From Elusimicrobia bacterium RIFOXYA2_FULL_47_53 (GTDB taxonomy: Bacteria > Elusimicrobiota > Endomicrobiia > Endomicrobiales > XYA2-FULL-47-53), in the NCBI GenBank assembly GCA_001800315.1, contig MGVE01000016.1:1-64000 (forward strand): a stretch of 64,000 bases of DNA. The letters run 5' to 3'. Below, in pieces: positions 26,613 through 57,411 of this stretch; within the stretch, counting starts at the first letter, position 1; every line of letters begins with the position of its first letter. Under the pieces are notes generated by a model, which ran no database searches, was not told the DNA's origin, and saw only the letters and a program-made list of their open reading frames with translations. The position numbers were made by a program, and so were the translations under genes.

Positions 26613-26723
26613 AATTCACCGTATCAATCAAGCTTGTGACAAAGTTTGTAAAACACTTGTAAAATAACTAAGAATATCGCAGTATCTCAGTTGTTATGTT
26701 GTTTACAAATTCAGGGAGATAAA

Positions 26724-28280
26724 ATGACCTCGGTTAAGCCAAATCCAGAAAAGCGAAATCTGAGCAGAATTAAATGCGTTTTGCCCGTAAAATTAGTTGA
26801 CATAAATTTGGTCCAGGAGGAATTTTTCGTTGAATGTGTCAACATAAGCAAGACTGGGATGTCAATAGTCAGCAATATGGACAACATATCAACCCCAATA
26901 GAGGTATTGCTTGACCCCTACAACACTATGCTTAAAAAAGCTGATACGCTCCAGGTATCAGCTGAAATCAAATGGGTAAAGAAATTCCATGACGGAAAAG
27001 CATTTTATTACGGGCTTACTTTTATTAACCTGTCACCCGAAAACAAGAATGATATTGATCGTTTTGTTGAATCGGTAGCCGACTTAGTAGCAAGCGCCCA
27101 ATCGGGCAACGGTGTTTATGTTCCCAAAAACAGCCAGCTCAATTATAACAAGGACTTTATAATTAATAAGCGCCTAAAATGGCTGTCAGAAAAAACAAAT
27201 GTGGAATATAAAAACATTTCTAACTTTACGGTTGATACCGAGTCAATGAAAGGCAATATAGAAAACTGCATTGGGGCCGTGCAAGTCCCGCTCGCAGTCG
27301 CAGGCCCCATAAAAGTAAACGGACAATATGCTAAGGGAGACTTTTATATTCCTCTTTCTACTACCGAAGGCGCCCTCGCAATGACATATGACCTCGGTTG
27401 CAGGGTAATATATAAGGCTGGCGGCGCAAACACAAAGATAATTAAAGATGAAGTTCATATTTCGCCGGTATTTAAGCTTAACAGCATTGCTGAAGGCGAT
27501 GAATTTATTGACTGGATAAATAACCATTTTGAACAGATTAAACAGCGTGCAGAAAGCACAACAAGGTACGGCAAGCTGTTGCGTACTGAATGTATAAAGA
27601 TGGGCCTAAAGATAATTGTTAAATTCATTTATTCAACTGGCGACGCCCAGGGATTAAATATGATTAATAAAGGGACCGATGCCTCATGTAAATATATAGT
27701 TGAACAGAAAAAAATTGAATATTACCACAGGGCTAACTACTCCGGAATCAAGAAACTCAACATGGACAATATATATAACGGCAACGGCAAGGCGGTTGTC
27801 GCTGATGTTACTATTCCAAAGAACATATTGCGTGCTTTGCGAGTTACACCCGAGGAAATGGTTGAATATTACAACACCTGCCTTTTAGCAAGTACCTATG
27901 CCGGCATGATTGGCATTAATGCCCACATAGCAAACGGGATCACGGCCATGTTTATCGCCTGCGGCCAGGATGTAGCGGATATTTCGGTTTCCAGCGTAGG
28001 TTTTATGTCCTACGAACTTACCAATAAGGGTGATTTATACGGAAGTCTTTACATACCAAACCTATTTGTTGGTACCGTAGGTGGAGGAACAAAATTGGGT
28101 GGTCAGCGTGAATGTCTTGACATGATGGGGTGCTCGGGGACCGGCAGTTCAAAAAAGTTTGCAGAGCTCGTCACGGCCACTGCATTAGCCGGCGAAATAG
28201 CTGTCGTCTCGGCACTTCTCAATAACAACTATGTCCAAGCGCACGAAAAGTACGGTCGCGCAAAACGGTCAGTAATATAA
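26724..28280 (+). CDS. PilZ domain fused to class I HMG-CoA reductase
   Basis: 518 residues. ATG 26724 is chosen because CAGGGAG lies upstream and the PilZ domain starts at once; an in-frame ATG at 26691 has no ribosome site. The PilZ domain (about 8-125) has both c-di-GMP motifs intact: RNLSR (R11-R15, RxxxR) and NISKTG (N40-G45, NxSxxG). The HMG-CoA reductase domain (about 150-518) has ENCIGAVQVPLAVAGP (E180), IKK (K343), GQD (D416), GTVGGGT and AHEKYG (H507). These match the catalytic Glu, Lys, Asp and His of class I enzymes such as human HMGCR. It should make mevalonate with NADPH. Fusion to PilZ implies second-messenger control of isoprenoid synthesis, which I do not know as an established arrangement. 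Confidence 0.88.
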   Translation: MTSVKPNPEKRNLSRIKCVLPVKLVDINLVQEEFFVECVNISKTGMSIVSNMDNISTPIEVLLDPYNTMLKKADTLQVSAEIKWVKKFHDGKAFYYGLTFINLSPENKNDIDRFVESVADLVASAQSGNGVYVPKNSQLNYNKDFIINKRLKWLSEKTNVEYKNISNFTVDTESMKGNIENCIGAVQVPLAVAGPIKVNGQYAKGDFYIPLSTTEGALAMTYDLGCRVIYKAGGANTKIIKDEVHISPVFKLNSIAEGDEFIDWINNHFEQIKQRAESTTRYGKLLRTECIKMGLKIIVKFIYSTGDAQGLNMINKGTDASCKYIVEQKKIEYYHRANYSGIKKLNMDNIYNGNGKAVVADVTIPKNILRALRVTPEEMVEYYNTCLLASTYAGMIGINAHIANGITAMFIACGQDVADISVSSVGFMSYELTNKGDLYGSLYIPNLFVGTVGGGTKLGGQRECLDMMGCSGTGSSKKFAELVTATALAGEIAVVSALLNNNYVQAHEKYGRAKRSVI

Positions 28281-28317: not shown

Positions 28318-30471
28318 ATGAACTTATCGTTTGTTGCCGCATCACTATTGACGGCTGTGGTCAGCCTGGCCTTCTCCGTATTCGTATACGCGAAGAGACA
28401 CTCGCTGAAAGCTAATCGTGTTTGGGGATTATTTGGAATAAGTTGTGCCTTATGGAGTTTGGGGTTAGGAATGATGTCTTTTGCCCCAAACGAACAGATA
28501 GCGCTGTTTTGGCTCAAATATGTCCACTATGTCGGAGCTATTTTTATCCCGCCGATTTTCTTCCATTTCGTCACGGTCCTTATAGAAAATGACTACACAA
28601 AACAAGGCAGGCGAATGCTCGCCATCGCTTATACACTGGCGGGCCTGCTTCTGATCGCAAATTTTACCGGAGTGCTTGCAACTGTCAAACCGGTTTCTTA
28701 CTTTCACTATTACACGGCTCCAAAAGCTTTATATAATGTTTTTGGCCTGTATTTTCTGTTCTATGTAGTTTACTCGCTTTACCTGCTGCTTAAGGCGTAT
28801 TTGAACGCAACAGATATTATTCGGCGTAACCAGCTCAAATACCTTCTGCTCGGCATGACTGTTGGTTTTATTGGCGGCAGCACGGCATTCTTCCCTGTCT
28901 ATGACATAGAAATATTCCCGTTTGGGATGTATTTTGCGTCTAGCCATGTCGCAATTGTATCTTACGCAATGATAAAATTCAGGCTTATGGATATAAGGAT
29001 AGCTGTTACCAGGGCAGGCATATTCCTTACCGTATATATGTTGGTCTTAGGCCTGCCATTCTGGTATTTGTTTGCCTACGGATTAAGCATACAACTCTAC
29101 ATTGCTACGATAGTGCTTGCGACTCTCGGCCCCATTATTTACCGATACCTGGATGAAAAAGCCGAAGAGTTGCTGTTGGCAGCTCAGCGTCATTACCAGA
29201 AACTGCTTGTTGATGCGGCAAGCGGTATGACCGAACAACATTCGCTCAGCAAATTATTAAAACTAGTTGTTTATCTGGTTAAACGAATCGTAAAGGTCTC
29301 ATACGCGGCAATACTTCTTTACGATAAAGAAACTAACAGCTTTATACTAAAAGAAATACGCGCTTCCGAGAAAATGGCCAGCCTAAGCGCACCGTTCATA
29401 ATAGATAGCACTCATTATTTATTCCACCGCATCAACGAATCCGACGAACCTTTCCTTTTTAATGAACTTCCTAAGTATGTGCAGGACGCGTTTAATTTTC
29501 CCATAAAACCGGGTCTTATAGTTCCGTCCTACTATCAAAAAAAGCCCATCGGAGTTCTTTTCCTTGGGAACAAGATGAACAACGAGATTTTCACACAGGA
29601 TGATATTCGTGTGTTTAAAATTCTTGCGAGCCAGTCTGCTCTGGCTGTTGAAAATTGCATATTTATTACCGAGTCTAAGAATTCTCAGGAAAAGATTTTT
29701 CACGCCGAAAAGCTCGCCAGCGTCGGAGGAATGGCCGAAGGCATCGCCCACCAGATAGGAAACAGGTTAAACCAGTTTTCTGTCGCTGCCGGCGAACTGG
29801 AACTGGAGCTGGGGTCTATAAAGATGAATCACAGCGAGTATTTAAAAACAGAATCTTTCAGAACCAGCGTGGACTATATATCAAAACTTGTCACATCTAT
29901 TTTGTCAAATGTAAAAAAAACCGACGCGGTTATACGGAGCATACTGAACTTCGCCAAGCCCGGGAGCGAGAATAAAGTTGAATTCTCTCTCATTGAAATG
30001 ACAAACTCGGTAACCGAACTTATCTGCATCAAACATCGCCTCAGGGAATTTCCGTACCTGAAGTTTGACATAAAATGTTCCGATGTGCTTTTCGCCATTA
30101 AAGAACAGATGTCCGAGTCAATTTTCAATTTATTGGACAATTCCTTTGAATCAATTCAGGATAAGATACTCAGGTCGGCGGAAGCCGGACAACCATATCC
30201 GGATCCAAACATAACCGTATCATTGAAGGAAAAAGACGGCTTATGGCAGCTCGCGGTATCTGATAATGGAATGGGAATAAGCGATTCCGTAAAGCGCAAG
30301 ATCTTCGCTCCGTTTTTTACAACTAAATCATCCACAAAATCCGGCTCCGGCATAGGCATGTATGTGGTTAAACGAATCATTGAAGAACGCCACAACGGTA
30401 AAATATGGTTTGAGTCCCAGGAAGGCCAGGGCACTACTTTTTTCATAGAAATTCCGCGCGGGGACAACTGA
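28318..30471 (+). CDS. multi-pass membrane histidine kinase with GAF domain
   Basis: 717 residues. The N-terminal 280 residues contain seven or eight hydrophobic helices, like the 7TM sensor region of HisKA_7TM kinases (WLKYVHYVGAIFIPPIFFHF). A GAF-like domain (about 310-450) and a kinase core follow. The H-box is atypical: EGIAHQIGNRLNQ (His near 478), the form seen in PrsK-like/ZraS-type HisKAs. HATPase boxes are intact (NLLDNSFES, DNGMGIS, GSGIGMYVVKR). GGGGGGAAAG precedes ATG 28318. It begins 37 bases after the PilZ-reductase gene, so they may share a transcript. The ligand is unknown and no cognate regulator is adjacent. Confidence 0.85.
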   Translation: MNLSFVAASLLTAVVSLAFSVFVYAKRHSLKANRVWGLFGISCALWSLGLGMMSFAPNEQIALFWLKYVHYVGAIFIPPIFFHFVTVLIENDYTKQGRRMLAIAYTLAGLLLIANFTGVLATVKPVSYFHYYTAPKALYNVFGLYFLFYVVYSLYLLLKAYLNATDIIRRNQLKYLLLGMTVGFIGGSTAFFPVYDIEIFPFGMYFASSHVAIVSYAMIKFRLMDIRIAVTRAGIFLTVYMLVLGLPFWYLFAYGLSIQLYIATIVLATLGPIIYRYLDEKAEELLLAAQRHYQKLLVDAASGMTEQHSLSKLLKLVVYLVKRIVKVSYAAILLYDKETNSFILKEIRASEKMASLSAPFIIDSTHYLFHRINESDEPFLFNELPKYVQDAFNFPIKPGLIVPSYYQKKPIGVLFLGNKMNNEIFTQDDIRVFKILASQSALAVENCIFITESKNSQEKIFHAEKLASVGGMAEGIAHQIGNRLNQFSVAAGELELELGSIKMNHSEYLKTESFRTSVDYISKLVTSILSNVKKTDAVIRSILNFAKPGSENKVEFSLIEMTNSVTELICIKHRLREFPYLKFDIKCSDVLFAIKEQMSESIFNLLDNSFESIQDKILRSAEAGQPYPDPNITVSLKEKDGLWQLAVSDNGMGISDSVKRKIFAPFFTTKSSTKSGSGIGMYVVKRIIEERHNGKIWFESQEGQGTTFFIEIPRGDN

Positions 30472-30548
30472 CGAGCCAGCGAGATTAAACCTGACTGTTA
30501 TAATTTTTGCCGTGTATGGCATGTTTTTATTTTTCTGAAGGGGGAAAA

Positions 30549-47997: not shown

Positions 47998-48013
47998 GAT
48001 GGAGGGAAAGATC

Positions 48014-49159
48014 ATGGACAACACGCTTAAGCTTCTTGTCGTTGAAGACAATCCTGAGGATATTGAGCTTGTAAGCAGGATGCTGACAAAGAAACAGTTC
48101 GTAAATTTTGAAGTTGAGACAGTTGCGCGAATGTCTGAAGCCGTCCTGCGCCTTGAGAAGGGCGGGGTGGATCTCATATTGCTGGATCTCGGGCTTCCGG
48201 ACAGCCAAGGGATGGGCACATACCGGGAAATTCAGCGCGCGGCCCCAAAAACTCCGGTAATCATTTTAAGCGGAAATGAAGATTTTGACTTGGCGGTTGG
48301 GATTATAAAAGAGGGGGCGCAGGATTTTTATGTCAAGGGAAGTGTTAAACAGGAAGCTCTTGTTCGTTCTATCCATTATGCTCTTGAGCGCAAGCGGGCA
48401 ACGGAAAAACTGAATATATTTAACGCTGAGCTTGAAATAAGAGTTGAAAAACGCACCAAAGAGCTTGAGGAGGCAAATAAGCAGTTGAAATCTTTCTCTT
48501 ATTCAATATCGCACGACCTGAAGGCGCCGATCAGGGCGATAGAAGGATTTTCCGCGATTCTTGAGAGCGATTATTCAAAAACCATGGACACTGAGGCAAG
48601 AAGGCTTGTTTCGCTGATAAGGGGAGGGGCGTTAAAAATGAAACAGCTTGTAGAGGACTTATTGCTATTTCATACATATTTAATGAAAGAACTCGCGAGC
48701 AAACAGGTAAATATTTACAACCTCGCGCAGTCAGTACTTGCTGAAATCAAAAGCCACAATACAACAGGCAAGGCTGTTGACGCGAAAATTAATCCCTTGC
48801 CTGACGCCCTATGCGACAGCGCTCTGATACGGCAAGTTTTTATAAATCTTATCTCAAACGCGGTAAAATTTACTTCTAAAACTGAAACACCAGAAATAGA
48901 AGTTGGCGGCGAAATAATTAATGGATTCAACCGCTATTATGTCAAAGACAATGGCGTAGGTTTTGATATGGCATATATGGATAAACTTTTCGGCGTTTTC
49001 AACAGGCTTCATAAAGAATCGGATTTTGAAGGCACCGGTATCGGCCTTGCGATAGTGAAAAGGATTATTGAGCGCCACGGCGGAGTGGTTTGGGCTGAAT
49101 CTAACCTGAACAAAGGGGCAACTTTTTATTTCACCTTGCCGCAGCTGAATTCTAATTGA
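48014..49159 (+). CDS. REC-HisKA hybrid histidine kinase
   Basis: 381 residues from ATG 48014 with GGAGGGAA upstream. A receiver domain (about 5-122; phospho-acceptor D58 in LLDLGLPDSQG) is followed by a coiled-coil linker (about 125-160) and a HisKA domain with SHDLKAPIRAIEGF (H167). HATPase_c follows (NLISNAVKFTS, DNGVGFD, GTGIGLAIVKR). The arrangement resembles the phytochrome-like kinases that sit behind REC modules. It has no sensory domain, so its input is phosphorylation of D58 by another kinase. The cognate kinase is not adjacent, but several hybrid kinases follow. A clear terminator comes later, at 49280. Confidence 0.88.
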   Translation: MDNTLKLLVVEDNPEDIELVSRMLTKKQFVNFEVETVARMSEAVLRLEKGGVDLILLDLGLPDSQGMGTYREIQRAAPKTPVIILSGNEDFDLAVGIIKEGAQDFYVKGSVKQEALVRSIHYALERKRATEKLNIFNAELEIRVEKRTKELEEANKQLKSFSYSISHDLKAPIRAIEGFSAILESDYSKTMDTEARRLVSLIRGGALKMKQLVEDLLLFHTYLMKELASKQVNIYNLAQSVLAEIKSHNTTGKAVDAKINPLPDALCDSALIRQVFINLISNAVKFTSKTETPEIEVGGEIINGFNRYYVKDNGVGFDMAYMDKLFGVFNRLHKESDFEGTGIGLAIVKRIIERHGGVVWAESNLNKGATFYFTLPQLNSN

Positions 49160-49279
49160 CTTATCATATAGAAAGAAGTAATCTATTAACAAGCAGGCGC
49201 AAAAGATATATTACTACTTAATTATTTAGTGGGGAATATGACTAACACAGGGATCATCTTTACACAATAAAATATAATG

Positions 49280-49314
49280 TACCGCCATTTTTTTGGGCGG
49301 TATTTTTATTTTAT
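49280..49314 (+). terminator. intrinsic terminator after the REC-kinase gene
   Basis: TACCGCC (49280-49286) pairs with GGCGGTA (49296-49302) around an ATTTTTTTG loop, followed by TTTTTATTTT. It separates the 45.3-49.2 kb operon from the CheB-CheR gene. Confidence 0.85.
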
Positions 49315-49463
49315 ATATAGATGTCTTCCGAGGGCCCGCAGGACTGAATGCTCTTGCGAATAAGCGCGGGGGCGCATGAAGGCTCCGAGCCGGTGAGCGG
49401 CGCTGTAAAATCAAGTGCGGATACCAGACAGCTCGTTTCGGATGACAATACCGTGGGGAAAAA
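49315..49463 (+). promoter_or_regulatory. GC-rich leader of the CheB-CheR gene, possible structured RNA
   Basis: Between the terminator and the ATG at 49464 lies a stretch that is much more GC-rich than typical intergenic DNA here. It starts after a TATATA box (49312-49317) and contains complementary blocks such as CCCGC (49334-49338) with GCGGG (49367-49371) and the palindrome GGCTCCGAGCC. No known riboswitch consensus fits by eye. No open frame with a plausible start is seen in it. It may be a regulatory leader or an unrelated non-coding RNA. Confidence 0.3.
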
Positions 49464-52400
49464 ATGAAAAACAAAAAGAAAATTAACTTAAATTCAAAAA
49501 CTGAGGCTTTTCCGGTAGTTGGTATTGGCGGCTCGGCCGGTGGGCTTGAGGCGTTTCAGAAACTGCTGCGGAGCCTTCCTGCTAATCTCGGTATGAGTTA
49601 TGTGTTTATAATGCATTTAGCTCCTGAGCATAAAAGTATGCTGACCGAACTGTTAGCCAAAGAGACAAAAATGCCGGTTAATGAGGCAAAAAGCGGCATG
49701 AAATTGGAAGCTAACCATGTTTATGTAATACCTCCCAATGTTAAAATGGTTTTGAATAGCGGCAGGTTATTGCTTACCCGGCTGAAAGTCAGCGACCTTA
49801 AACGCATGCCTGTAGACAATTTCTTTCAATCTCTTGCCAAAGAACTTAGCAGCAGAGCAATAGGCGTTATTTTGTCCGGGACTGCTACTGATGGAACGCT
49901 TGGAGCTGAAGGGATTAAAGCCGAGGGCGGGATTATTTTCGCGCAAGACGAAGAAACGGCAAAATATTTCGGTATGCCGCAAAGCGCCATTGCCGCGGGC
50001 TGCGTGGATTTCGTGCTGTCACCCGATAATATCGCGAGAGAACTCATTCGTATCGCTAAACATCCCTATATTTCTATCGGCAAGCCAGCCGCCCCGGAGG
50101 AGCCGATCATTGGTGAAACTGAAGGTTTTGCTGTCATTTTTGACTTGCTGCGTCAGTCACGGGGAGTTGATTTTACGCTCTACAAGGCTCCTACGGTCAA
50201 GAGGCGCATATCCCGCCGCATGGTTTTGCTGAGGCAGCATAATCTTAAAGACTACATAAAGGTTCTGCGGGACAATAACGCGGAATTGAACAATCTTTAT
50301 GATGACCTCTTAATAAATGTCACAAAATTCTTCCGCGATGCCGCCGTATTCGGCGCGCTTAAAAAGAAAGTTTTAGCCGCGGTTATTAAAGAAAATAAAA
50401 AGAATCAGCTGATAAAAATATGGGTTCCGGGATGCGCCGGCGGCGAGGAAGTATATTCTATCGCCATTTGCGTGGCGGAGGCTCTGGGGAACAAGATCGC
50501 GTCAATCCCTGTACAAATTTTCGGAAGCGATATCAGCGAAAAGAGCATTGATAAAGCCAGGCGCGGTTTGTATCCCAAGTCCATAGAAGCAGATATTACC
50601 CCGGAGCGTTTGAAGCGGTTTTTCACCAAAGACGGAGATTCCTACAGGGTATCCAAACAGCTGCGCAGTATGTGTATTTTCTCAAGACAAAATGTCTTTA
50701 ACGACCCGCCTTTCTCAAATTTAGACCTTATCAGCTGCCGCAATCTTTTAATATACCTTCAGCCGGCCCTGCAGAGAAGCGTGTTTAATAAATTCCATTA
50801 CGCTCTCCGGCCCGGCGGTTTTTTATTGCTTGGCAATTCAGAATCAGCGGCTGGTTATGCCGGTCTTTTTAAGGTTATGGACAGAAAACACAAGATATTC
50901 ATAAAGAAATATACTCCCATGTCTCCAAAACTTGAAATAGGCAGGCAGTATTATTTGCCGGAGAAATTAGAAATCAAAGAAAAGACAGGCCTTATGAAAT
51001 CCAGAGAAACCGATATTGGAAGCCTTGTTGAACAGGCGGTGCTTGAGCAGTACGCCGCGAGCGGCGTATTGCTTAACAGCGATATGGATGTAATCCAGTT
51101 TCGCGGGCATACCGGGCGCTATCTTGAATCATCCGCGGGTAAACCAAGCCATAATATATTTAAATTAACCAGAGAAGGACTGGCTCTGCCATTGCGGGCC
51201 GCGATAAATAAAGCCAGAGACACAAAACGGGCCGTAAGCAAAGAAGCCGGCGATGTCTGGTACGGCGGGCGCAGGCTGAGCCTTAATGTTACGGTTATTC
51301 CCGTTAAATCCGGAGCCTTAAAGGAAGAATTTTACCTGGTTCTTTTTGACGAAAATTCCGGAGGGAATTCAGGTAAAAAAACCTCGCCGCTCGGAAAAAA
51401 TGCCCCTAAAATCAAGCATATTAAAAATGACGAACTTTTAAATCTGCGTAATGAACTTATGGAGACGAAAGAATATCTTCAAACAGTTATTGAAGAACAT
51501 GAGAGCGCCAACGAAGAAGTAAAAACCGCGAATGAGGAAATACTTTCAAGCAATGAAGAACTTCAAAGCACAAATGAAGAGCTTGAAACGGCAAAAGAAG
51601 AACTGCAGTCTTCAAATGAGGAATTGATCACCACTAATGAGGAACTGCAGAACCGTAACAGAGAAGCCAATCTGCTCAATAATGACCTTGTAAACCTGCT
51701 TAGCAGTATCAATATGCCGGTAATAATGATGGATACGGGGCTTGTAATACGCAGGATAACACCGCAGGCTGAAAGAGCGCTAAATGTAGTTTCCGCGGAT
51801 GTAGGAAGGGAAATAACAAAAATAAAGCTGAGCGTTGAAATCCCTGATCTGGAAAAGATTCTCATGGAAGTTATTGAGTCTCTTCATCCGAAAACTTTTG
51901 AAGTGCGGTCCGGGGAGGGAAACTGGTATTCGGCAAATATAAGGCCTTACAGAACCTTAGACAACCGGATTGATGGCGTTGTCGCTGTTTTTGTGGACAT
52001 CACAGGGATAAAGAAGGCACAGGAAATCACGGAAGAAGCCCGTGATTACTCTGAAAATATTGTTGAGACTGTGCGTGAACCATTAATCGTAATGGACTCG
52101 GACTTAAATATAATATCAGCCAATAAATCATACTACATGGCGTTTAAAACAACAGCCGCGGAAACACAGGGGAGATTAGTTTATGACTTGCCCGGCAAAC
52201 AGTGGGATATTCCGGCCCTGCGAAAGCTGCTGGAAGGGGTCTCCGCAAAAAATGAACCCTTTGATGGTTATAGAGTTGAACAGGATTTCGGTACTGCCGG
52301 CAAAAAGATTTTATTATTGAGCGCAAGGCAAATTACCAGAAGGACAACTGGCAGGCATTTAATTCTAATGGCTGTGGAAGATGTTACCGTTACCAGCCAT

Positions 52401-53528
52401 ATGGAAAAAGAACTGATGAAAGTCCAGAAGCTTGACTCGCTGGGAATACTCGCCGGCGGCATAGCCCATGACTTTAATAACATACTTACGGGTATTATAG
52501 GAAATTTATCCATGATTCGCGGGAGTAAGGACAATGAAGTGCTCAGTGATGTCATGAAAGCGGCAGTGCGCGCTAAAAACCTGACATTGCAGCTTTTAAC
52601 ATTTGCTAAAGGCGGCGCGCCTGTCAAGAAACTTACGGTAATTAAGGATATAATCAGGGATTCCTCTGTTTTTGCGACTCACGGTTCAAGAACCATCTGT
52701 AAATTTCATATTGCCGCAAATTTACATCCGCTGATTGTTGATCCCGGACAAATCGCTCAGGTAATATCTAATATGGTAATTAACGCGGTACAGGCAATGT
52801 CTGAGGGCGGAATTATTAACATTTCAGCGGAAAACATCAACCTAACGGACAAGACGCAACTGCCTATAAAATCAGGCGACTATGTGCGTATCAGCATTAA
52901 AGACACCGGTGCCGGCATAGCCGCGGGAGATTTAGGTAAAATATTTGACCCTTATTTTTCAACCAAGGAAGGAGGAAGCGGTTTGGGCCTTGCCACCAGC
53001 TATTCTATAATAAAAAATCATGATGGCTATACCACTGTTAAATCCGACGAAGGAATCGGAACCTTGTTTGAAATTTATTTGCCGGCCGTTATTCAGCAGG
53101 CAGGAATTGAAACGCCCGTTGTCAGCAGGGAAATAATAGAGGGCCGCGGCCGAATTCTTATTTTAGATGACGAGGAAATAATTCGGGTTCTGGGTTTAAG
53201 AATGCTCACCAAACTCGGCTATGTGGCCGAATGTTTTGACGATTCTGAAAAGGCGATTGAGCGTTATAAGCAGGCATGGGGAACCGCGGAGGCTTTTGAA
53301 GCGGTTATACTTGACCTTACCCTGCCCGGCCGTATGGGCGGCAAAGAAGTTTTGGGCAGGCTTAAGAGCATAAACCCTGAAATAAAAGCCATTGTTTCCA
53401 GCGGCTATTCTGAAGATAAAGTCATGGCAAACCATAAGGAATACGGATTTTCCGCAGTTCTTCAAAAGCCGTATGATATTGAAGAAGTCAGCGCTATCCT
53501 CCATAAGTTGTTAATGAAGAATCAATAA
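49464..53528 (+). CDS. CheB-CheR-PAS-histidine kinase-REC megaprotein
   Basis: 1,354 residues, all cytoplasmic. A CheB methylesterase domain (about 15-195) has GIGGSAGGLEAF (Ser), HLAPEHKSML (His) and SGTATDGT (Asp). A CheR methyltransferase domain (about 205-480) has VPGCAGGEEVYSIAI and NLLIYLQPALQ. A long coiled coil of NEELQSTNEELE repeats (about 650-730) leads to two PAS domains (about 735-960), HisKA (GGIAHDFNNILTG, about 985-1045), HATPase_c (about 1090-1195) and a terminal REC (about 1225-1350; LDLTLPG). Such fused proteins couple receptor-type methyl chemistry to phosphorelay in signalling unrelated to classic chemotaxis. No MCP, CheA or CheW is in the window. GTGGGGA precedes the ATG. 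Confidence 0.9.
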   Translation: MKNKKKINLNSKTEAFPVVGIGGSAGGLEAFQKLLRSLPANLGMSYVFIMHLAPEHKSMLTELLAKETKMPVNEAKSGMKLEANHVYVIPPNVKMVLNSGRLLLTRLKVSDLKRMPVDNFFQSLAKELSSRAIGVILSGTATDGTLGAEGIKAEGGIIFAQDEETAKYFGMPQSAIAAGCVDFVLSPDNIARELIRIAKHPYISIGKPAAPEEPIIGETEGFAVIFDLLRQSRGVDFTLYKAPTVKRRISRRMVLLRQHNLKDYIKVLRDNNAELNNLYDDLLINVTKFFRDAAVFGALKKKVLAAVIKENKKNQLIKIWVPGCAGGEEVYSIAICVAEALGNKIASIPVQIFGSDISEKSIDKARRGLYPKSIEADITPERLKRFFTKDGDSYRVSKQLRSMCIFSRQNVFNDPPFSNLDLISCRNLLIYLQPALQRSVFNKFHYALRPGGFLLLGNSESAAGYAGLFKVMDRKHKIFIKKYTPMSPKLEIGRQYYLPEKLEIKEKTGLMKSRETDIGSLVEQAVLEQYAASGVLLNSDMDVIQFRGHTGRYLESSAGKPSHNIFKLTREGLALPLRAAINKARDTKRAVSKEAGDVWYGGRRLSLNVTVIPVKSGALKEEFYLVLFDENSGGNSGKKTSPLGKNAPKIKHIKNDELLNLRNELMETKEYLQTVIEEHESANEEVKTANEEILSSNEELQSTNEELETAKEELQSSNEELITTNEELQNRNREANLLNNDLVNLLSSINMPVIMMDTGLVIRRITPQAERALNVVSADVGREITKIKLSVEIPDLEKILMEVIESLHPKTFEVRSGEGNWYSANIRPYRTLDNRIDGVVAVFVDITGIKKAQEITEEARDYSENIVETVREPLIVMDSDLNIISANKSYYMAFKTTAAETQGRLVYDLPGKQWDIPALRKLLEGVSAKNEPFDGYRVEQDFGTAGKKILLLSARQITRRTTGRHLILMAVEDVTVTSHMEKELMKVQKLDSLGILAGGIAHDFNNILTGIIGNLSMIRGSKDNEVLSDVMKAAVRAKNLTLQLLTFAKGGAPVKKLTVIKDIIRDSSVFATHGSRTICKFHIAANLHPLIVDPGQIAQVISNMVINAVQAMSEGGIINISAENINLTDKTQLPIKSGDYVRISIKDTGAGIAAGDLGKIFDPYFSTKEGGSGLGLATSYSIIKNHDGYTTVKSDEGIGTLFEIYLPAVIQQAGIETPVVSREIIEGRGRILILDDEEIIRVLGLRMLTKLGYVAECFDDSEKAIERYKQAWGTAEAFEAVILDLTLPGRMGGKEVLGRLKSINPEIKAIVSSGYSEDKVMANHKEYGFSAVLQKPYDIEEVSAILHKLLMKNQ

Positions 53529-53538
53529 ATTTATTTCT

Positions 53539-55605
53539 ATGAAAGACTCAAGTATTAATATTCTTATTATAGAGGATTATCCGGAACATATTAAACTTGT
53601 TTCACGGATGCTTGAGAATTGCTCTTCGCAGTCATTCAATCTGGCTTCCGCGGGAAGGCTTGATGAAGGAATATCAATAATTGCTTCGGCCAGGTTTGAT
53701 GCTATTTTGCTTGACCTTACCCTGCCTGACAGTTATGGCCTTGAAGGGCTGGAGAAAATCTCGTCACAATTTCCTGATATTCCTGTAATTGTGCTAACGG
53801 CTTTAGATGACGAAAGCATGGAATTGCAGGCTATGCAGAAAAATTCATGGGATTATCTGGTTAAGGGCCAGATAAACACGAATCTTCTGGTGCATGCCAT
53901 ACGCTATGCCATAGAACGCAAGAAAAAAGAAAACGAACTTCGTAATGCCAACCGGATACTGTCCGCGTTGAGTGAAAGCAGCCAGGCTATGCTTTACTCA
54001 CAAAACGAAACTTCCTACTTGCGCCAGATATGCAGGATTATCGTTAAAAATTGCGGCTATTCAGCTGCCTGGGTCGGCTACCGCGTTGATGATGAAGGCA
54101 AAACAATCAGGCCCATGGCTTATCACGGCGTAAAGCATGAGTATATGGAAACTGTTTGCAAGACCTGGGAAGACAGCGTTTGCGGCAATACTCCAGCAGG
54201 CATGGCTATTCGTACCGGCAAATTATGTTTGTGTCAAAACATTGATAGCTGTTCCTGGTATAAACCATGGGTGCAGGAGACCATTGAACATGGATATTCA
54301 TCCGCGATAGCCATCCCCTTAAAGACCAGAGATGGCGCTTTCGGAGCGATCACCGCTTTTTCCGATGAAACAAATCCATTTACGGAAAAAGAAGTTCAGA
54401 TGCTTTCTGAAATCTCGGCTGACCTCGTTTACGGCATATCAGCAATTAAAACGAGAAATTTACAGGAAAAAACAGAAAAGGAGCTAAAGGAAAGCGAACG
54501 CCGGATGGCGGCTTTGCTGAACGCCACGACAGAATCAATATGGCTTATGAATACTGACGGATGTATCCTTGCCTCTAATGAGATCGCGGCAAAACGGCTT
54601 GGGCTAAACGCTGAGTTCCTAAAAGGCAAAATATACTTTGATTATTTACCCGGTTCGGTAGCTAAAACGAGGCGGCACAAAATGGAGGAAGTTATCAATA
54701 CCGGCAAACCGCTTCGCTTTCAGGATGAAAGATCCGGGCTGATTTTCAGCCACAGCCTGTTTCCCGTTCGGGATGAATCGGGTAATATTCAATCAATCGC
54801 GGTATTCAGTAACGACATAACCGACAGCAAAAGAGTTGAGGAGGTGCTTCAAAGAGATAAGGATACTCTTGAAAAAATGGTACAGGAACAGGCTCATGAG
54901 TATTCCCGGGCGCAGATTGAATTAGAAAGGGCACGGAGATTGTCGGACATAGGGCGGCTGGCTTCAACTGTTGCCCATGAGTTAAGAAACCCGCTGGCAA
55001 CAATAAAAACAGCTGTTTTCAATATTCAGCGGAAAGCCGGCAGCCCGCTTATTGAAAGACATATCGCTAACATTAACAAAAAGATACTGGAATCGGACGC
55101 TATAATCCAGAATGTTCTAAATTTTTCAAAAGTGAAGGTTCTTAATATTGAAAAAGTCGCGCTTAAACCTCTGCTTGTTGAATCCTGCAACAACATTTCC
55201 GGGAATTATAAGAAAAACAAAGTCTCTCTTAAGGAGGCTTACCTTACTAAAGATGACTGCGTAGTGGAAGGAGATCAATCGCTGCTGCAATCGCTTTTTT
55301 CTAATATACTGGATAACGCGTTTCAGTCCATGGACAAAAAGTCAGGCAAAATAGACCTGCGTGTTGACAGTTCCGGCGATAATTACTACGAGATAATCAT
55401 TGAGGATAACGGGGTAGGCATTGACGAGGAAAATATTTCAAAAATCTATGAGCCTTTCTTTACCACAAGGTCCAGGGGAACCGGGCTGGGGCTGTCGGTA
55501 TGCCGTGAAATTGTGGAACGCCATTACGGGAAAATTGACATCAAAAGCAAAAAAGGTTCCGGCACGACAGTTAAAATCACCCTTCCGATACTGCAATTGA
55601 AATAG
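53539..55605 (+). CDS. REC-GAF-PAS histidine kinase
   Basis: 688 residues without membrane segments. A receiver domain (about 6-125; D59 in LLDLTLPDSYG) is followed by a GAF domain (about 140-310; IRTGKLCLCQNID, GYSSAIAIPL), a PAS domain (about 325-440), a coiled coil (about 440-470) and HisKA with AHELRNPLATIKTA (H480). HATPase_c closes it (NILDNAFQS, DNGVGID, GTGLGLSVCRE). The receiver fold resembles that of the CheB-CheR protein and of the 48014 kinase. It begins 11 bases after the CheB-CheR gene, so the two are co-transcribed and probably linked in a phosphorelay. Confidence 0.88.
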   Translation: MKDSSINILIIEDYPEHIKLVSRMLENCSSQSFNLASAGRLDEGISIIASARFDAILLDLTLPDSYGLEGLEKISSQFPDIPVIVLTALDDESMELQAMQKNSWDYLVKGQINTNLLVHAIRYAIERKKKENELRNANRILSALSESSQAMLYSQNETSYLRQICRIIVKNCGYSAAWVGYRVDDEGKTIRPMAYHGVKHEYMETVCKTWEDSVCGNTPAGMAIRTGKLCLCQNIDSCSWYKPWVQETIEHGYSSAIAIPLKTRDGAFGAITAFSDETNPFTEKEVQMLSEISADLVYGISAIKTRNLQEKTEKELKESERRMAALLNATTESIWLMNTDGCILASNEIAAKRLGLNAEFLKGKIYFDYLPGSVAKTRRHKMEEVINTGKPLRFQDERSGLIFSHSLFPVRDESGNIQSIAVFSNDITDSKRVEEVLQRDKDTLEKMVQEQAHEYSRAQIELERARRLSDIGRLASTVAHELRNPLATIKTAVFNIQRKAGSPLIERHIANINKKILESDAIIQNVLNFSKVKVLNIEKVALKPLLVESCNNISGNYKKNKVSLKEAYLTKDDCVVEGDQSLLQSLFSNILDNAFQSMDKKSGKIDLRVDSSGDNYYEIIIEDNGVGIDEENISKIYEPFFTTRSRGTGLGLSVCREIVERHYGKIDIKSKKGSGTTVKITLPILQLK

Positions 55606-55637
55606 GCTGACTATATTTTTTTACCCATCAGGTGGAT

Positions 55638-55649
55638 AAAAGTCAGTAA
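55638..55649 (+). promoter_or_regulatory. AAAAGTCAGTAA motif upstream of the REC-AraC gene
   Basis: The 12-mer AAAAGTCAGTAA lies 76 bases before the ATG at 55725. The same 12-mer recurs at 56925-56936 and 58348-58359, with a variant at 57467-57477, all between genes of this cluster. Confidence 0.45.
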
Positions 55650-55724
55650 TGCGGGGATATATGATATTGTGTATTCTTAACGCTATTTATACAATTATCA
55701 AAAGCGCAAACCGTGAGGAAAACA

Positions 55725-56441
55725 ATGCCGGAAACTATTTTGATAGTTGATGATGAAAAAGAATTCAGGGAAGAGCTTGTCTCCAGCTTTGAAGCCTACC
55801 AGACAATAGAGGCGTCCAGCGGCCAGCAGGCGCTTGGCCTGTTAAACAAGCCAAACGAAATTGACCTGGTGATACTTGACTTCAAAATGCCGGGTTTAAG
55901 CGGCACGGAAATACTTAAGGTTATTAAAAAAAGAAACCCCAATATTAAAGTAATCATGCTGACGGCTTTCAGTTCTAAAGATATTGCCGTTGAATCCCTG
56001 CGCGGACAGGCTGACGATTTTCTTGAGAAACCGGTTGATATTGAAAAATTAATGGCGTCTGTTGAGAAACATTTGGAACGCGCGGAGCAAAACAACGAAT
56101 CGGATGCCCCGCAAATTAATCAAAAAATAAACAGGGTAAAGCGATATCTGGAACGCAATGCCTTAAAGAAAGTATCCCTTGAGGACGCCGGAAAAACTGT
56201 GGGGCTTAGCCCAAAATATCTAAGCAGAATATTTAAAAATACCTGCGGCGCCGGTTTTATGGATTACAAACTTAAGGTAAAAATTGATAAGGCAAAAAAC
56301 CTTCTTTCCGCTTCCGGCTGTACTGTGAGCGAAATATCCGACAGGCTGGGGTTTATGAATCCGGAATCGTTCATGCGAATATTTAAGAAAGTAATGAAGT
56401 TGACGCCTACGGAATTTAGAAAAAAGAAGAAAAAGAAATGA
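55725..56441 (+). CDS. REC-AraC response regulator
   Basis: 238 residues from ATG 55725, with GTGAGGAAA just upstream; the in-frame GTG at 55713 would overlap that site. A receiver domain (about 4-118; D52 in LDFKMPG) is followed by a linker and an AraC-type double helix-turn-helix (about 135-235; LSPKYLSRIFK, CTVSEISDRLGFMNPESF). It is the only DNA-binding output regulator in the cluster, so it is the likely transcriptional end point of the neighbouring kinases. It may bind near the GTCAGTA motifs around it. The stop overlaps the next receiver gene. Confidence 0.88.
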   Translation: MPETILIVDDEKEFREELVSSFEAYQTIEASSGQQALGLLNKPNEIDLVILDFKMPGLSGTEILKVIKKRNPNIKVIMLTAFSSKDIAVESLRGQADDFLEKPVDIEKLMASVEKHLERAEQNNESDAPQINQKINRVKRYLERNALKKVSLEDAGKTVGLSPKYLSRIFKNTCGAGFMDYKLKVKIDKAKNLLSASGCTVSEISDRLGFMNPESFMRIFKKVMKLTPTEFRKKKKKK

Positions 56442-56845
56442 TTATGAGCGTCAAGAAAAATATTCTTCTGATTGACGATGACGAAGAGATGTGCGATGAG
56501 CTGATTGAAGTATTAATTGACGCCGGTTATAACATTGACTGTGTCCACAACGGCACGGAGGGCAAAAACCTGATACTTCAGCGCGGCTATGACCTGATAC
56601 TGCTTGATATCAAGCTTCCCGGGCTAACCGGTTATGAAGTGCTTAAAGCTACTGAAGGGCGCACAAAAGAAGCGAAAATACTTATTCTCACGGGCCGTCC
56701 CATGCAGAAAGATGCGGAGCCCGGAGCTCAGCTCACGGAGGAAGACAGAGAGGAAGAAAACGCGCTGAAACTCGCCAACGGCATCATCAACAAACCTTTT
56801 GACCTGGAAAAGATTCTCGCAACCATAAAACAAATTACCTTGTAA
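56438..56845 (+). CDS. stand-alone receiver (CheY-like) protein
   Basis: 135 residues forming one receiver domain with acidic residues D13-D15, phospho-acceptor D57 (LLDIKLPG), T-loop Thr in ILILTGRP and Lys in NKPFD. The loop before the last Lys is longer than usual (MQKDAEPGAQLTEEDREEEN, about 88-108), an insertion between beta4 and beta5. The start overlaps the stop of the REC-AraC gene (ATGA, 56438-56441). It probably relays phosphate between kinases of this cluster or binds another protein. Confidence 0.85.
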   Translation: MIMSVKKNILLIDDDEEMCDELIEVLIDAGYNIDCVHNGTEGKNLILQRGYDLILLDIKLPGLTGYEVLKATEGRTKEAKILILTGRPMQKDAEPGAQLTEEDREEENALKLANGIINKPFDLEKILATIKQITL

Positions 56846-56924
56846 TCCCCGAAACATCTTCTTCCACACTACGCAATTACCTGTTACCCTCGCCCCTTTA
56901 TGACGGTTTTTTTTATTTGGAGGA

Positions 56925-56936
56925 AAAAGTCAGTAA
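56925..56936 (+). promoter_or_regulatory. AAAAGTCAGTAA motif upstream of the second receiver gene
   Basis: A 12-mer identical to 55638-55649, 65 bases before the ATG at 57001. Confidence 0.45.
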
Positions 56937-57000
56937 AAAGGCGAAACCACCAATTGGAACAAATGCATATATGGTGTAGCATTTACGCGGGAATACAATT

Positions 57001-57411
57001 ATGAAAAAGCGAATAATGATTGTGGACGACGATAAGGAATTTCTTGATGAGCTGTCGGACTTAATGCTTTCCAGCGGGTATGATGTGTGCACTTGCATTG
57101 ATGGCGCAAGGGCCTTAGCCGAAATTCCTGAAGTTATGCCGGATATTATTCTCCTTGATCTCAAAATGAATAATATTAACGGCTTCCAGGTAGCGGTCCG
57201 GCTGAAAGCAATACCCAAAGCCTGCGATATACCGATCATTGCGATGACGGGGTATTATACACAGGATGAATACGCCTTAATGATAAAAATCTGCGGAATA
57301 AAGAAATTCATAATCAAAACTGCCGATCCGGGCAACATTGTAAGAGAAGTTAAACTTGTCTTAGCGGGGCTGTCCACCCGGAATACGCATGAAAAAGCAA
57401 ATAATAACTGA
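57001..57411 (+). CDS. stand-alone receiver (CheY-like) protein
   Basis: 136 residues, one receiver domain: DDD (9-11), D53 in LLDLKMNNING, Thr in IIAMTGYYT and Lys near 102 in KKFIIKT. The usual KP after beta5 is KT. No output domain. The gene is separated from the other receiver by 155 bases that contain a GTCAGTA motif, so it may have its own promoter. No good ribosome site is seen directly before the ATG. It probably works in the same phosphorelay as the neighbouring kinases. Confidence 0.83.
   Translation: MKKRIMIVDDDKEFLDELSDLMLSSGYDVCTCIDGARALAEIPEVMPDIILLDLKMNNINGFQVAVRLKAIPKACDIPIIAMTGYYTQDEYALMIKICGIKKFIIKTADPGNIVREVKLVLAGLSTRNTHEKANNN

Follow-up and report, generated by a model that had tools for sequence, protein, structure and literature searches.

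PilZ domains (PF07238) with an RxxxR and a [DN]xSxxG motif are fused to output domains in effectors such as YcgR and the cellulose synthase BcsA. CqsA, which uses acyl-CoA, and LqsA are both PLP enzymes, and their partners are the six-TM sensor kinases CqsS and LqsS (PMC3376566). The window analysed here, a 64,000-nucleotide stretch of DNA from Elusimicrobia bacterium RIFOXYA2_FULL_47_53 (contig MGVE01000016.1), carries a gene that joins a PilZ domain, bearing both motifs, to an HMG-CoA reductase (HMGR) domain and is followed by a 7TM histidine kinase gene. Whereas the output domain in YcgR and BcsA is of another kind, here an acyl-thioester enzyme takes its place, encoded next to a 7TM receptor, and in the titles and abstracts read no description of such a PilZ effector was found, nor any link of PilZ to HMG-CoA reductase, mevalonate, CqsA or an autoinducer synthase.

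As a working parallel, the locus most closely resembles the alpha-hydroxyketone autoinducer systems CqsA-CqsS and LqsA-LqsS. In each, the gene of an acyl-thioester-type enzyme (at this locus a putative signal synthase) adjoins that of a multi-TM histidine kinase, and in sister cassettes of the phylum the enzyme is an alpha-oxoamine synthase from the superfamily of CqsA and LqsA. The window enzyme itself is HMGR-like and not an alpha-oxoamine (PLP) synthase of the CqsA family; in further contrast to the known systems, the enzyme bears PilZ, the kinase is a HisKA_7TM protein with a GAF domain instead of a six-TM kinase, many cassettes include a FadL porin, and many alternative enzymes occur. Class I HMG-CoA reductases (PF00368; Methanothermococcus 6hr7, human 1dq8) are matched over the whole catalytic domain, including the catalytic Glu, Lys, Asp and His; the window protein differs from them by its N-terminal PilZ domain, the replacement of R590, S684 and D690, the pairing of its gene with that of a histidine kinase, and a genome in which no mevalonate pathway was found.

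An intact fusion with an altered substrate pocket

The fusion is encoded by one reading frame, with AGGGAG, similar to a ribosome-binding site, immediately 5' of the ATG at 26724:

26724..28280, + strand: PilZ-HMG-CoA reductase gene, a single unbroken ORF from the ATG at 26724 to the stop at 28280, 518 aa
26751..27071, + strand: PilZ domain, residues 10-116 (R11 at 26754, R15 at 26766, N40 at 26841, G45 at 26856)
27162..28259, + strand: class I HMG-CoA reductase domain, residues 147-512
27366, 27750, 27969 and 28242, + strand: catalytic codons of Glu215, Lys343, Asp416 and His507
27459, 27729 and 27747, + strand: altered-pocket codons of Ile246, Arg336 and Ile342

Both domains scored above the curated Pfam cut-offs (PilZ, PF07238: E 3.7e-10, 40.5 bits against a cut-off of 22.5; HMG-CoA_red, PF00368: E 1.9e-106, profile positions 2-368 of 368); the closest solved structure was 6hr7, a class I enzyme (E 5e-87), and the c-di-GMP motifs read RNLSR (R11xxxR15) and NISKTG (N40xSxxG45). 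The fusion of PilZ to a class I HMG-CoA reductase and the two motifs, as described in the first-pass annotation, were thereby confirmed. A gene-model artefact is excluded because the same architecture is found in G199, a genome from another family of the same phylum (L022:7953-9608, - strand); the reductase part of the G199 protein is 45% identical to that of the window protein, and their reductase domains form a sister pair in the tree (support 0.93). An AlphaFold2 model of the window protein, made with two homologues, had a pLDDT of 40.6 and was set aside.

Established HMGR structure work gives the roles of human R590, S684, D690 and K692 in HMG binding and those of the catalytic residues. 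The window protein retains the catalytic residues Glu215, Lys343, Asp416 and His507 (human E559, K691, D767 and H866). The last three had been named correctly before; Glu180, which had been taken for the catalytic glutamate, is the Glu of the ENxIG motif (human E528), and the catalytic position is Glu215, in TTEG. In the pocket, whose changes the first-pass annotation did not mention, R590 is replaced by Ile246, S684 by Arg336 and D690 by Ile342, and K692 remains Lys, so that the HMG-binding set reads I, R, I, K. The alignment covered 28 class I enzymes: the two PilZ fusions, 24 PilZ-free bacterial enzymes and those of human and Methanothermococcus. Human position 590 is without a basic residue only in the window and G199 proteins, R590 being retained (as K in one) by all 26 others; Arg at 684 is likewise confined to the two fusions, at a position that varies among the other 26, and D690, Ile in the window protein, is invariant among these 26. 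Asn658 and the GTVGGGT segment are unchanged in both fusions. From the shared pocket changes and the sister position it follows that the two fusions have one origin and have departed from an HMG-CoA-type pocket, which argues against ordinary mevalonate synthesis. The window protein scored 333.5 bits, below the NCBIfam equivalog cut-off of 441.8 for NADPH HMG-CoA reductase. The G199 protein retains the PilZ motifs and carries E559->Q, H866->D and R871->S, and is therefore unlikely to be a normal reductase.

Isoprenoid genes, c-di-GMP and other reductases

The window genome (G000; 2.41 Mb, 20 contigs, 100% complete) has a single HMGR match and the MEP enzyme Dxr. No match to the C-domain of HMG-CoA synthase was found in it, its only two GHMP kinases were read as IspE and ThrB (homoserine kinase) from sequence and neighbours, and no mevalonate kinase was seen among them; judged by its gene content, the genome appears to be without an evident mevalonate pathway. 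HMGR occurs in 12 of 340 genomes of the phylum. The ten besides G000 and G199 have class II-like enzymes, several of them adjoined by mevalonate-pathway-like genes (both read from the sequences), and no PilZ fusion was seen among these ten.

Nine GGDEF and eight PilZ matches were obtained in the window genome, the seven other PilZ frames being short (132-177 aa). Since these matches accompany both PilZ motifs in the fusion, c-di-GMP gating of the protein is plausible, and this part of the earlier interpretation stands; the accompanying proposal, control of mevalonate and isoprenoid synthesis, is not supported, for the reasons weighed below.

Among Pseudomonadota, the HMGR query matched 27 of 398 sampled genomes, and none of the matches covered its PilZ part; a scan of genome contigs gave only two HMGRs, neither with a PilZ match, and a scan of viral contigs gave no PilZ-HMGR fusion. 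In Paenibacillus oenotherae (L003:9485-12343, + strand) an HMG-CoA reductase is followed in frame by a small-molecule kinase-like domain (Pfam EcKL/APH match); its N-terminus looked PilZ-like by eye and was not counted, because it had no Pfam PilZ match and an hhalign probability of 0.5%. The same order of domains was read from the sequence of a Streptomyces plasmid (L037:5455-8328, + strand). Class I HMG-CoA reductases at three Pseudomonadota loci (L039, L040 and L041) have another in-frame N-terminal stretch of ~120 aa (FVPSILLKQLYT...).

A single 7TM kinase beside the fusion gene

The surroundings of the fusion gene comprise:

26636..26665, + strand: promoter-like site between lemA and the PilZ-HMGR gene, 10/12 matches, of a class no commoner than chance in the region
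28318..30471, + strand: sensor histidine kinase, 717 aa, HisKA_7TM, GAF and HATPase_c domains, H-box AEGIAHQIGNRL present
30508..30521, + strand: terminator-like stem-loop with T tail directly past the kinase stop, of a class not above chance in the region

The kinase gene starts ~35 bp 3' of the PilZ-HMGR gene. Its HisKA_7TM match (28345-28995) is the only one in the window genome and comes right after the only long PilZ gene, and the kinase is the probable receptor partner of the fusion protein; the putative stem-loop is consistent with a two-gene unit. No FadL-like gene directly adjoins the pair, and FadL-profile matches lie elsewhere in the window (4918, 9320 and 16232). A run of response-regulator-like genes (47999, 53539, 55713, 56438 and 57001; 47999-57411, + strand) was noted by eye from the starts of the translations.

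Replacement of the enzyme beside 7TM receptors in relatives

HisKA_7TM is present in 64 of 340 genomes of the phylum. The 13 PilZ matches of G199 comprise nine short and four long frames; each of the four long fusions has a HisKA_7TM match less than 4 kb away, and none of the nine short genes does (binomial chance 8e-8, with the 4-kb zones covering 1.7% of the genome and the distance picked after looking). The partners in the long fusions are HMGR, an acyl-ACP-reductase/PigE-like enzyme, an alpha-oxoamine synthase and a weakly identified GNAT/LBL_2463-like enzyme, and a FadL-type porin is present. The HMGR locus (L022) and the GNAT-like locus (L059) share the order FadL, PilZ fusion, 7TM kinase, response regulator, 7TM cyclase-like ORF, where the last gene of L022 is a Guanylate_cyc match and the response regulator and cyclase of L059 were assigned from length and sequence start; the acyl-ACP-reductase/PigE-like (L060) and alpha-oxoamine synthase (L061) loci have FadL and a 7TM receptor in other gene order. 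In a survey of 40 HisKA_7TM stretches, six further PilZ-enzyme fusions were found beside 7TM receptors in five other genomes of the phylum; these are listed below the L060 fusion:

L060:7021-8754, - strand: acyl-ACP-reductase/PigE-like enzyme with PilZ, adjoining a 7TM protein and a FadL porin
G201 and G283: PilZ-4HBT thioesterase beside a 7TM receptor
G205 and G338: PilZ-alpha-oxoamine synthase beside a 7TM receptor
G201: PilZ-methyltransferase beside a 7TM receptor
G040: PilZ-LuxD-like acyltransferase beside a 7TM receptor

The PLP-Lys motif (TFSKAFG/TLSKALG) is matched by three of the four oxoamine synthases, and those of the sister cassettes match the CqsA/LqsA-type model with a score under its cut-off. 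The same receptor and FadL, with no PilZ detected, accompany an oxoamine synthase in G202, an acyl-ACP-reductase-like enzyme that ends at a contig edge in G200, and two ketoacyl synthases with a methyltransferase in G039; HisKA_7TM kinases without PilZ fusions are also found in many relatives.

Three other stretches were recorded. An acyl-ACP-reductase/PigE-like frame, cut by the contig end, lies beside a 7TM protein and a FadL porin in a second genome (L109:5911-6771, - strand). Cyclase-like proteins, two ketoacyl synthases, an O-methyltransferase, a FadL porin, a HisKA_7TM kinase and a response-regulator-like gene occur together without PilZ at L128:859-10411 (+ strand). At L095:3662-5919 (- strand) a PilZ-LuxD-like frame overlaps a second frame with the remaining LuxD-like domain and a methyltransferase, which is either a frameshift or an assembly error.

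A tree of 67 7TM domains places the G199 and G205 receptors that accompany oxoamine synthases as sisters (support 1.0), and likewise the G201 and G283 receptors that accompany thioesterases (support 0.998); the output of the thioesterase-linked receptors is a kinase in G201 and an HD-GYP domain, with HHENYDGSGYP intact, in G283. In these two cases the 7TM domains pair by enzyme type. The two kinases that adjoin HMGR fusions do not group in this tree and are 22% identical over their whole length.

Proposed function and alternatives

The PilZ-HMGR protein is more likely to make or handle a lipid signal than to feed isoprenoid synthesis, because no mevalonate pathway is evident and, in related bacteria, other fatty-acyl enzymes occupy its slot beside the receptor kinase. 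We propose, with confidence evenly balanced for and against, that it supplies the enzyme of a two-gene cassette, a lipid-signal synthase with its receptor, and that PilZ serves as a c-di-GMP gate. The reductase domain would act on an acyl-CoA other than HMG-CoA and yield a small lipid-like product; c-di-GMP at the PilZ domain would turn the enzyme on or off, the neighbouring 7TM kinase would sense the product, and c-di-GMP would thereby decide if a lipid signal is sent out or responded to. The cassette is supported by the fusion itself, the PilZ motifs, the lack of an evident mevalonate pathway, the altered pocket, the adjacency of the sole 7TM kinase, the replacement of the enzyme in relatives, the pairing of 7TM domains by enzyme type and the analogy with CqsA and LqsA. 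Against it stand the catalytic losses in G199, which are the main objection, the non-sister kinases of the two HMGR loci, the lack of an adjoining FadL gene, the HisKA_7TM kinases that occur free of PilZ and the weak identification of the L059 enzyme.

The loss of two catalytic residues from the G199 reductase makes binding or sensing a serious rival role for HMGR: the domain may be a pseudo-enzyme or a degraded enzyme that persists as an acyl-CoA/NADPH-binding sensor, forming with PilZ a two-input switch to the kinase and making no product. We consider this unlikely. The catalytic Glu and His of G199 are gone with its PilZ motifs in place, and pocket positions 590 and 684 are changed in both fusions with Asn658 and GTVGGGT preserved, which speaks for a sensor; the window protein, however, keeps Glu215, Lys343, Asp416 and His507, and the other enzymes in the slot look catalytic, including the oxoamine synthases, three of four with the PLP-Lys motif.

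The reading of the first-pass annotation, a working HMG-CoA reductase through which c-di-GMP sets mevalonate output and hence isoprenoid synthesis, has the strong class I match, the catalytic tetrad and the PilZ motifs in its favour, but is very unlikely in view of Dxr, the missing HMG-CoA synthase match, GHMP kinases read as IspE and ThrB with no mevalonate kinase seen, a score under the NCBIfam cut-off and the lost R590, S684 and D690 contacts; the conserved 7TM histidine kinase neighbour and the unrelated acyl-thioester enzymes that fill the slot in relatives disfavour it further. Mevalonate might still be made, with HMG-CoA supplied by leucine breakdown, and mevalonate or its lactone be a signal or export product. 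The kinase neighbour fits a signal role, and PilZ-free class I HMGRs are spread among Pseudomonadota (27/398 sampled genomes), so that HMGRs beyond the fusions of this phylum are common; the changed HMG contacts in the pocket speak against this reading, which we hold to be very unlikely.

Returning to the lipid-signal cassette, we suggest tentatively, and with somewhat more doubt than belief, that it belongs to a modular class in which PilZ places synthesis under c-di-GMP control, the enzyme is swapped, and the 7TM receptor and often FadL are kept. Its enzyme modules may possibly comprise HMGR, acyl-ACP reductase, alpha-oxoamine synthase, thioesterase, methyltransferase, LuxD-like and GNAT-like enzymes, and the receptor output might, on the same cautious footing, be either a kinase or HD-GYP. 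If this is true, one polypeptide would couple the state of c-di-GMP inside the cell directly to production of a lipid signal sent outward, gene adjacency would name the receptor for each signal, and an HMG-CoA reductase-like enzyme would gain a role in a bacterium where no mevalonate pathway is evident; the exchanged enzyme modules would then be a ready set of systems for finding new autoinducers.
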